Source: Pseudomonadota bacterium (lineage in GTDB: Bacteria; Pseudomonadota; Alphaproteobacteria; UBA828). From it: DNA of 64,000 bases. Position 1 is the stretch's first letter. Every line of letters starts with the position of its first letter. Shown one piece after another: positions 29,740 to 31,701 of this stretch. The stretch lies in assembly GCA_027624955.1 (NCBI GenBank), contig JAQBTG010000012.1, positions 1 to 64,000 on the forward strand, read 5' to 3'. The notes beneath the pieces are model-generated. The model ran no database searches, had not been told where the DNA came from, and saw only the letters and a list, made by a program, of their open reading frames with translations. Made by a program: the position numbers and the translations under genes.

Positions 29740-30198
29740 TTAGGCCGCCTTAGTTTCCAGCTGCGCCGCGCTGCCAATTTCAATTTTGCGCGGCTTTTTC
29801 TCTTCCGGCACCTCGCGCGCGAGAACGATGGTGAGCAACCCATCCTCAAGGCCCGCATTTACCACTTTGATATAGTCCGCCAACTGGAAGCGCCGCTCAA
29901 AGGCGCGTTTGGCGATACCCTGGTAAAGCAAACCCTTGTTATCATTTTCCGCTTGTTTGTGAGCCCGTCCGGTCACGGACAAGGTATTTTCGTGCACGAC
30001 GACATCGACGTCATCTGCCCTGAATCCGGCGACAGCCATGGTGACTCGGTAATCATCCTCGCCGCTTTGCTCTATATTGTAGGGCGGATAGGAAATGTCG
30101 CTATCGGCATATTGAGCCGAATTGTTGAGCATACGGGTGACGCGGTCAAAGCCGACGGCTGTGCGAAACAGGGGAGAGAGGTCATAAGCTGAACGCAT
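29740..30198 (-). CDS. small heat-shock protein Hsp20 (IbpA-like)
   Basis: 152 aa. The alpha-crystallin domain (about 38-130) reads YPPYNIEQSGEDDYRVTMAVAGFRADDVDVVVHENTLSVTGR and ends GLEDGLLTIVLAREVPEEKKPRKIEI, with the GLL/IEI elements that drive oligomer contacts; the N terminus MRSAYDLSPLFRTAVGFDRV is the class A (IbpA-like) pattern. It is an ATP-independent holdase. The start at 30198 has GGAGG 7 nt upstream; a longer frame starts seven codons earlier but would remove this site. Control appears to be dual: a sigma-32 promoter and a ROSE-like thermometer in the leader. Confidence 0.95.
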   Translation of the reverse strand: MRSAYDLSPLFRTAVGFDRVTRMLNNSAQYADSDISYPPYNIEQSGEDDYRVTMAVAGFRADDVDVVVHENTLSVTGRAHKQAENDNKGLLYQGIAKRAFERRFQLADYIKVVNAGLEDGLLTIVLAREVPEEKKPRKIEIGSAAQLETKAA

Positions 30199-30200
30199 TG

Positions 30201-30223
30201 GATATCCTCCATTGAGCAATATC
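30201..30223 (-). promoter_or_regulatory. ROSE-like RNA thermometer hairpin masking the hsp20 ribosome site
   Basis: In the minus-strand leader GAUAU-UGCUC-AAU-GGAGG-AUAUC folds so that GAUAU pairs with AUAUC and UUGCUC pairs with the Shine-Dalgarno GGAGG, with the G of UUGCU bulged. The conserved U(U/C)GCU opposite the SD, with a bulged G, is the hallmark of ROSE elements that control small heat-shock genes in alphaproteobacteria. Upstream leader sequence to about 30300 has further possible stems. Melting on heating would free the SD. Confidence 0.72.
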
Positions 30224-30308
30224 TTGGCGGGCCACTATGGCGCTTTGGACGAGCCATATTGGCCCCGCCTGTTAAAAGCAGCCCCATCATGGCGACTGCC
30301 TGAGTAGA

Positions 30309-30336
30309 ATGTGGGGAGTTTTTAGCGTCGTTCAAG
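30309..30336 (-). promoter_or_regulatory. sigma-32 (RpoH) promoter of hsp20
   Basis: On the minus strand CTTGAA (30331-30336) and CCCCACAT (30309-30316) are 14 bases apart, matching the heat-shock CTTGAA / CCCCATnT consensus. The predicted start lies about 105 bases ahead of the hsp20 ATG, leaving room for the ROSE-like leader. Confidence 0.65.
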
Positions 30337-30532
30337 ATGTGTCGAAGTCAGTTATCAGGGCCAATAATCGTTCGACATATCGGGCCGCTATTTTTCTGGC
30401 CAGACCGTAATGGCGCTCTGCAAAAGGTCTCTCCGCTAGGTACGGTATGCGGTACGGTCCCAGATTCAGTTCTACCGTATGCGAAAATCCCGGTATGCCA
30501 ACGCTGGGCGCAAATCCGACCGTGGGATACAC
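30332..30532 (-). pseudogene. unrecognised coding remnant downstream of the FIST gene
   Basis: A frame of 66 codons from a possible GTG; it is open further upstream, back into the 3' end of the FIST gene, with no ATG in frame. It encodes VYPTVGFAPSVGIPGFSHTVELNLGPYRIP..., followed by a helical RPFAERHYGLARKIAARYVERLLALI. This reads like the C-terminal part of an enzyme domain, and I do not recognise the family. The end overlaps the hsp20 heat-shock promoter on the same strand. It may be a decayed gene or a small protein; the leader region 30199-30331 is otherwise regulatory. Confidence 0.3.
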
Positions 30533-30579
30533 GCTTCGAGAGGAGATTCCCTGAGGAATGACTTCATCGTGGCATGGGG

Positions 30580-31701
30580 CTAGGTAAACAGGGTCAGCAC
30601 GCCGGTATAGGTGTAAAGGCGTCCGTGAGATATTTCGCCATTGCAGAAAAAACCCACCAAGGGCACGTCACCCAACTCGCGCTCGATTATTTTTAGTTCT
30701 TGCGACGCGTTGCCGAACATATTGGGACCGCGCGCCAAGCAGGAAAAATAAATACCGCCCTTCGGTGTCGTTGCCGTCCGTTTCTTTAAATCGGACAGCA
30801 TGCGCACGAGATCGGCCTCAGCCGCTTGCGCGTCGCGGCGGCAAAATTGCACCGATTGTCCGGTTTCGACGATTTCGCCGATGGCCACGAGCTGCCGCTC
30901 AACGTCGATTCCCGTAAGATTTCGAACCAGATAGTCGCCAGTATCGGAATTTGCGATGGGCAGGGCAGCAAAAATATATCCCGCGACGCGCTGCAGGTCG
31001 CGCGACAGGAGGTCGCCGACATCCTCCTTGAAAACTTCGAGTGCAGGGCGACCGTCCAGTTCGATGAGGACATTTTCTTCGCATGCCGTTATCTGATGGC
31101 GGGGCGCGATCGGCATGCAACTTTGGCTGAGGGCGGTGACGATGGGAACATCTTCAGCCAGCAAGACGCCCGATACCCCACCGTCGCACACATTACCGGA
31201 GATCTGTGAAAGCTCGCCACGGGAAGACGTCAGTCCGCCGACAAGAAATCCGTTCAATTGGTCAGCAAGCCCCGCGATGATCTCGGGAATTTCGCTATTG
31301 CGTGGGTCGCCATGTACGACCGCAAATCTGCTTTGCCGGGATTTAGCCCAACTGGCAATCGCGGGCGGCAAGGTATCCGGGCGGTTCAGCGAGTCCAGCA
31401 AGCGAAACCCATCTTGCGGCAATTCGGCCACCAGCACGGCCAATGCAGGTTGGTTAAAATATTCATGGCCGGTCGCGCATATGCCCATGCCGACGCTGCC
31501 GACCCAATCGGCGATGGCCGTCTTCTTGCGCAACAGAGCAAGAATGTTTTTCGCATCACCGGACAAACTGTCGGTCATGTAAATTAGGCCCAGATTTTCA
31601 AATCCAGGGCGATTTTCCAAGCCGCTCAATTCCGCAATGCACTGCTCGGTGATCGTTTTCCAATCCGTGCCGGAAGCATGGGCGAGTGTGAACCTATCCA
31701 T
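30580..31701 (-). CDS. FIST domain signal-sensing protein
   Basis: 373 aa. An N-terminal FIST region (ALLRKKTAIADWVGSVGMGICATGHEYFNQPALAVLVAELPQDGFRLLDSL, ... LADQLNGFLVGGLTSSRGELSQI) and a FIST_C domain (LIELDGRPALEVFKEDVGDLLSRDLQRVAG ... ARGPNMFGNASQELKIIERELGDVPLVGFFCNGEISHGRLYTYTGVLTLF) fill the protein. FIST proteins are thought to bind small ligands such as amino acids and often sit with signalling proteins, but no histidine kinase or cyclase is nearby here. The open reading continues in another frame after the stop. Confidence 0.88.
   Translation of the reverse strand: MDRFTLAHASGTDWKTITEQCIAELSGLENRPGFENLGLIYMTDSLSGDAKNILALLRKKTAIADWVGSVGMGICATGHEYFNQPALAVLVAELPQDGFRLLDSLNRPDTLPPAIASWAKSRQSRFAVVHGDPRNSEIPEIIAGLADQLNGFLVGGLTSSRGELSQISGNVCDGGVSGVLLAEDVPIVTALSQSCMPIAPRHQITACEENVLIELDGRPALEVFKEDVGDLLSRDLQRVAGYIFAALPIANSDTGDYLVRNLTGIDVERQLVAIGEIVETGQSVQFCRRDAQAAEADLVRMLSDLKKRTATTPKGGIYFSCLARGPNMFGNASQELKIIERELGDVPLVGFFCNGEISHGRLYTYTGVLTLFT

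Follow-up and report, generated by a model that had tools for sequence, protein, structure and literature searches.

The window analysed here, a stretch of DNA of 64,000 nucleotides, holds a gene for a small heat-shock protein of the IbpA type (hsp20), and very probably this gene is controlled by a ROSE-type RNA thermometer lying behind a sigma-32 promoter, so that heat would act on both its transcription and its translation; the melting step is taken over from what is known of the ROSE family. We base this reading on the recurrence of the element next to hsp20 in relatives, on compensatory base changes in the leader, on the spacing between the CTTGA box and the element, and on the presence of rpoH in the genome. 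Dual heat control had been proposed in a sequence-only reading of the same DNA, and the comparison with relatives speaks for it, specifically through the recurrence before hsp20, the compensatory changes and the narrow promoter-to-thermometer distance. The features on which the argument rests are the following:

29740-30198, minus strand: hsp20, IbpA-type small heat-shock protein of 152 aa with an ATG start (Pfam HSP20, 69.3 bits; relatives)
30198-30299, minus strand: ROSE-type RNA thermometer, positions 1-94 of the RF00435 model (covariance match; class model R1)
30201-30223, minus strand: hairpin III, the presumed melting hairpin (minimum-energy fold; covariation)
30206-30210, minus strand: Shine-Dalgarno sequence GGAGG (sequence)
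30226-30269, minus strand: hairpin II (minimum-energy fold)
30276-30301, minus strand: hairpin I (minimum-energy fold; covariation)
30309-30316, minus strand: -10 box CCCCACAT (sequence, pattern count)
30331-30336, minus strand: -35 box CTTGAA of sigma-32 type (sequence, pattern counts, order-wide CTTGA)
30332-30537, minus strand: C-terminal remnant of a sirtuin gene (Sir2 family), ending inside the -35 box (tblastn to relatives; homology edge)
30583-31701: FIST gene (Pfam)

The two promoter boxes are separated by a spacer of 14 nt (30330-30317, minus strand). Counted from the hsp20 ATG at 30198, the -35 box begins 138 bases and the -10 box ends 110 bases upstream, which confirms CTTGAA-14 nt-CCCCACAT as a promoter-like sequence before hsp20 and moves it slightly from the roughly 105 bases given earlier. 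The consensus for sigma-32 is quoted as NNCTTGAA-N(13-18)-CNCCATAT in the available part of PMC3669281. CCCCACAT differs from the -10 consensus by one base, and both boxes and their spacing have the sigma-32 form, i.e. CTTGAA and a box resembling CNCCATAT 13-18 nt apart. The window contains the pattern CTTGAA-N(13-15)-CCCCAYAT a single time, and 100 shuffles do not contain it; CTTGAA-N(12-16)-CCCCAYAT occurs three times in the 3.58 Mb genome and the reversed pattern not at all. Another genomic site (G000:C2:118470-118499, minus strand; locus L170) is an exact match and lies 176 nt before a 158-aa ORF, the start of which we take to resemble that of an exported Spy/CpxP-type protein. At the remaining site no ORF of at least 70 aa starts within 300 nt downstream. 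The sigma factor gene rpoH is present in the genome: a profile search gave 366.6 bits, above the family cut-off, and the best match of this protein among solved structures is an RpoH chain (193.3 bits). A second RpoH-like factor scores 276.5 bits, below the family cut-off.

The leader has a length of about 100 nt and forms three hairpins in its minimum-energy fold. The folding energy is -48.6 kcal/mol as compared to a mean of -39.4 for shuffled sequences (z -2.58), and one of 200 shuffles folds as well. In hairpin III, GAUAUUGCUC is paired to GAGGAUAUC with a single G left bulged (30217), so that the Shine-Dalgarno site is covered; specifically, GAUAUU.CUC pairs with GAGGAUAUC in the minimum-energy fold, UUGCU at 30219-30215 stands opposite the Shine-Dalgarno sequence and the G at 30217 is the unpaired one. 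The pairing of the ribosome binding site that had been read from the letters is thus present in the minimum-energy structure. Hairpin II varies in length and sequence among relatives and is absent from the consensus structure of 35 leaders. Between 20 and 60 C the mean unpaired probability of the Shine-Dalgarno sequence is 0.06-0.26, and the known E. coli ibpA thermometer behaves alike (0.05-0.16), so that the site stays mostly paired in both and the calculation speaks neither for nor against melting; the isolated hairpin III is predicted to be stable up to about 61-67 C and its E. coli ibpA counterpart up to 69 C. The longest mechanically derived hsp20 ORF (29740-30219, minus strand) starts with a TTG at 30219, within the UUGCUC of the thermometer, and a gene caller choosing this start would mask the leader.

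A cmscan search of 401 bases against all of Rfam found the ROSE family RF00435 at 30299-30198 over the full model length with 29.6 bits (E 0.012). The covariance match expected over the hsp20 leader is therefore there, but below the gathering score of 45 set for the curated family; it is important to note that this score is a curator's threshold and not a molecular feature. Across the whole window just four tRNAs score at or above their gathering scores. At E<=0.1, RF00435 matches 11 of the 22 genomes of the order, none above the cut-off, and none of 14 control genomes; by coordinates, the element adjoins hsp20 in all 11 cases. Among 289 genomes sampled from the class 45 match and a single one passes the cut-off, and 25 of the 27 best-scoring loci outside the order lie directly upstream of hsp20. 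Since the class loci mostly precede hsp20 and 1 of 289 genomes passes, the RF00435 cut-off leaves out elements that occupy the position of ROSE elements, and its strictness accounts for the low Rfam score. The two other best-scoring loci have no hsp20: in L141 a match of 35.2 bits (about 1501-1578) precedes an ORF of 20-22 aa, and in L146 one of 32.6 bits (about 1501-1573) precedes an ORF of 61-62 aa. These ROSE-like elements are possible thermometers on other genes.

A class model, R1, was built from 35 aligned leaders, namely 25 from the class and 10 from the order (all of its 11 except L091). Hairpins I and III are retained in the consensus, where 10 of 16 pairs have changed on both sides. 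At E<=0.1, R1 has matches in 100 of the same 289 genomes, the searches with both models having been run with the stricter filters for large searches. The matches fall in 108 places, 28 of them training sequences and 80 held out. When 68 of the 80 held-out places were examined (the other 12 are all at E 0.003 or weaker), 66 lay directly before hsp20, the exceptions being L228 and L248. The window leader scores 64.9 bits, but it is a training member; on 48 loci including controls, the best leader outside the training set scores 52.2 bits (L103). At E<=10 the known E. coli ibpA thermometer (L160) escapes R1, and in L110 the model has a match of 21.7 bits away from the hsp20 leader; R1 is therefore bound to the class and lacks specificity near 20 bits. 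With the Rfam cut-off as criterion, annotation would overlook most of the elements seen in the class sample (1 versus 100 of 289 genomes).

The same association is seen when hsp20 is taken as the starting point. An IbpA-type hsp20 (E<=1e-30) is present in 163 of the 289 class genomes, and 95 of these have an R1 match. From the 68 R1-negative genomes, 20 leaders were taken near the top of the hsp20 score list, neither at random nor consecutively. All 20 have U(U/C)GCU before an SD-like motif at most 48 nt from the ATG, and in 14 a CTTGA is found 70-150 nt upstream. The U(U/C)GCU-SD core is usual at hsp20 in the class, as far as sampled (20 of 68 R1-negative genomes). Within the order, T[TC]GCT lies at most 45 nt from the ATG in every one of 20 first-paralogue leaders. 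As a control, 113 leaders of other ORFs that carry an SD were scanned in the loci examined, and 3 have the motif before it. The SD hairpin with its unpaired G appears in the minimum-energy fold of 18 of the 20 first-paralogue leaders, not in G011 and G019 (65-nt piece), and the isolated piece from G012 folds otherwise. A mechanical scan found the motif in 50 of 57 hsp20 leaders and missed it in seven; here the ATG was chosen mechanically, both paralogues were included and many loci had been picked by the models. In one sister genus, g6 (L101, L102, L104, L106, L107 and L110), a variant GACUUGCUU...AAGGAGUC keeps the same bulged G in a different SD register. These g6 leaders have no RF00435 match at E<=0.1; against R1 four score 12-17 bits, L102 and L104 are unlisted at the leader, and membership is judged by the SD hairpin alone.

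The promoter recurs together with the leader. In the order, all 20 first-paralogue leaders have CTTGA 128-158 nt before the ATG; Ns follow it in G009 and G002, and a clear -10 box is not seen in G003. Of 57 class loci, 49 have CTTGA 28-52 nt ahead of the element, mostly at 36-40, as compared to 38 of 1327 control windows of the same size taken elsewhere in these loci. These 57 loci were required to have 100 nt upstream; L220 (too short), two loci without hsp20, eight longer ones and the training loci were left out. From this distance, which is 37 in the window, we infer that the transcript should begin at or just before hairpin I, and promoter geometry would place the start at about 30300-30303. 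In the literature covered, which includes few subscription journals and so gives weak evidence of absence, we found neither a class-wide count of ROSE elements nor a rule for promoter spacing.

Comparison of the aligned sequences indicates that the leader structure is kept in relatives by compensatory change. Hairpin III of the order was analysed in 18 distinct rows from 20 leaders: 95.7% of the cells are paired, and five of nine pairs have changed on both sides. There are 32 double-changed cells against 11.7 in shuffled alignments, and the covariation score is 0.555 against 0.221. None of 500 shuffles is as high on paired cells, double-changed cells or covariation score, and sliding the partner strand lowers the pairing to at most 63%. 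Two of the five measures, the number of double-changed pairs and that of further pair types, are not above the shuffles. In 69 sequences 94.0% is paired and 11 of 16 pairs have changed on both sides, with 179 double-changed cells (59.9 shuffled) and a covariation score of 0.564 (0.250 shuffled, no more than 0.117 with the partner strand slid); 28 of 500 shuffles have at least as many double-changed pairs. All six pairs of hairpin I carry changes on both sides in this set, and the C-G and U-A pairs that follow the unpaired G are invariant. Note that the alignment of 69 sequences (A4) was fitted to the structure model, which favours that structure, and that the shuffles in both comparisons ignore the relatedness of the sequences.

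Taken together, the mechanism could work as follows. Sigma-32 (RpoH) would transcribe hsp20 from the promoter described, and with a start at or just before hairpin I the mRNA leader would consist of little else than the ROSE thermometer. At normal temperature, hairpin III would hide the Shine-Dalgarno sequence by a weak helix that contains a U-G pair and the bulged G. On heating, hairpin III is expected to open and ribosomes to load, both the event and the size of its effect being assumed by analogy with the ROSE family. Heat would in this way act at two levels, on the synthesis of the mRNA through RpoH and on its translation through the leader.

The DNA upstream of the promoter had been described as an unrelated ORF remnant reading into it. 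The remnant is real; "unrelated" does not hold, since it is the tail of a sirtuin gene that reaches the same promoter in sister genomes. As an ORF it spans 30335-30532 and has no Pfam match of its own. The TGA stop of the sirtuin (30334-30332) lies within CTTGAA, and it is also inside CTTGAA in L084, L085, L087 and L088, judging by the printed tails and the upstream DNA. In the sister genomes a FIST gene is followed by a UPF0047/YjbQ gene and then by the sirtuin; this order is seen in L084 (UPF0047, 128.2 bits; SIR2, 153.4 bits, in an open frame of 301 aa), and L085 and L088 have the same order of frames. In the window, homology to yjbQ covers its first codons and ends at about 30546, and homology to the sirtuin resumes at about 30537, while L085 has about 950 bases between them. 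By this comparison, a deletion of about 0.94 kb relative to the sister genomes removed most of yjbQ (UPF0047) and of the sirtuin gene (30332-30546, minus strand). Neither SIR2 nor UPF0047 has a match anywhere in the genome at E<=0.001 (98.25% complete), and each is found in 10 of 14 control genomes. The junction was seen in one assembly and may be an assembly error.

The sirtuin tail bears on the question of where transcription of hsp20 begins. Since the sirtuin gene of sister genomes points the same way as hsp20 and extends to the promoter, where its stop codon shares bases with the -35 box, one could suppose that hsp20 is also transcribed from a promoter further upstream, through the sirtuin remnant, with the thermometer as the main heat control and the sigma-32 site in a minor role. 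We regard this as quite improbable, because other loci of the order, L083, L086, L089, L090, L091 and L092, have the CTTGA box as well, and no sirtuin tail was found upstream in them. The leader itself could be an ordinary SD hairpin, its ROSE likeness due to chance or to functionless homology of the hsp20 start region. The sub-threshold Rfam score and a computed folding that does not open on heating would fit such a view; the compensatory changes, the 66 of 68 held-out matches before hsp20 and the control rate of 3/113 speak against it and leave it hardly credible.

A different question is what the conserved structure is for. It could mainly serve binding by the Hsp20 protein itself, as in the self-repression of IbpA, with heat melting secondary. 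In E. coli, it is by way of Arg93 that IbpA holds down its own translation, and alanine at position 98 abolished this self-repression (both from the part of PMC10474464 available). The Hsp20 of the window keeps the residue set that E. coli IbpA needs according to that source: in E. coli numbering Arg 93, Arg at the basic positions 97 and 98, and Tyr 34. A sequence pattern shows Arg at 93 for 54 of 57 class loci and, within the order, for 19 of the 20 first-paralogue proteins, the remaining one not being matched by the pattern. However, this arginine is not specific to such leaders, being common in alpha- and gammaproteobacterial IbpAs (PMC10474464, as far as available), and RNA binding by the protein is a prediction here; moreover, in E. 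coli self-repression coexists with the thermometer, according to the accessible text of PMC8155344. As a main purpose of the leader structure, self-binding thus appears unlikely. Given that Arg93 in alphaproteobacterial IbpAs is already noted in PMC10474464, self-repression by this Hsp20 is a prediction and not a discovery.

Having preferred a ROSE thermometer behind a sigma-32 promoter, we can consider a wider and rather doubtful proposal, that promoter and thermometer form one inherited cassette of the class, in which a nearly constant distance of about 38 nt from the -35 box to hairpin I makes the transcript start at the thermometer, and that this cassette goes together with an Hsp20 retaining the RNA-binding arginine. 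If so, the leader would be under three-way control, by RpoH, heat melting and Hsp20 binding, and the strictly conserved UUGCU/bulged-G core together with the GCC...GGG of hairpin I would be kept both for recognition by the protein and for sensing heat. The wider set of leaders in any case enlarges the data for covariation and offers a rough guide to the promoter-to-thermometer spacing.

Regarding the gene itself, the best relatives of hsp20 include many from alphaproteobacteria, with Vibrio, Aeromonas and Photobacterium also listed, and a search of a plasmid collection gave 579 records, all below 60% identity. At the DNA level, 80 named loci from the search for relatives showed 66-78% identity over short stretches. 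We take the class to be Alphaproteobacteria, both from these hsp20 relatives and from the ParE encoded in the window, whose 20 best matches in the plasmid collection all come from alphaproteobacterial genera, with Azospirillum first at 67.7%. The genome has a second, more distant hsp20 on G000:C43 (L123, G000:C43:2500-6500), whose protein has Thr at position 98. The leader of this gene forms a UCGCU-SD hairpin (ACUCGCUC...GAGGAGU) enclosed by a longer helix in which the AUG is paired too, and it is unlisted by RF00435 and R1 at E<=10. Second-paralogue leaders of the order have T[TC]GCT at most 45 nt from the ATG in 11 of 17 cases. One more weak RF00435 match in the genome at E<=10 (G000:C8, 18.3 bits) was rejected as a second ROSE site, the first ORF downstream having no similarity to hsp20; 3 of 14 control genomes also match at this level. 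R1 has three further matches in the same genome, each with E above 3. UYGCUY-GGAGGA occurs nine times in the genome against five for the reversed control, and the leaders of both hsp20 genes account for two of these sites.

Compared to the known ROSE elements of rhizobial small heat-shock genes (RF00435), the element described here likewise forms the leader of a small heat-shock gene and ends at the start codon. It has upstream hairpins and a 3' hairpin in which U(U/C)GCU is opposite the SD around a bulged G, and the model is matched from end to end. It differs in the GAUAU/AUAUC helix, most leaders of the class having CAU-type pairs, in a longer hairpin II, and in that the outer helix drawn by Rfam around the SD hairpin is missing. 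The ibpA gene of E. coli shares the U(U/C)GCU-SD hairpin, Arg93 and Tyr34 (PMC10474464) and sigma-32 control (PMC8155344), so far as these papers were accessible. Different from the window, E. coli also has ibpB, R1 fails on its leader, and self-repression is predicted here.

Dual control by sigma-32 and a ROSE-like thermometer was measured for P. putida ibpA, as described in the available text of PMC3669281. The short ROSE-like thermometers of Pseudomonas ibpA resemble the present case in combining the two kinds of control on the same kind of gene. They belong to another bacterial group and are called "short", and their function was measured, whereas ours is read from sequence. Multiple regulation is also suggested in the accessible part of PMC3989490, in a discussion of M. 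loti, S. meliloti and E. coli. Dual control by sigma-32 and a thermometer is thus already published for other bacteria (PMC3669281, PMC3989490), and the arrangement before hsp20 is genuine but ordinary for its class: a known type of control that recurs before the same gene in relatives.
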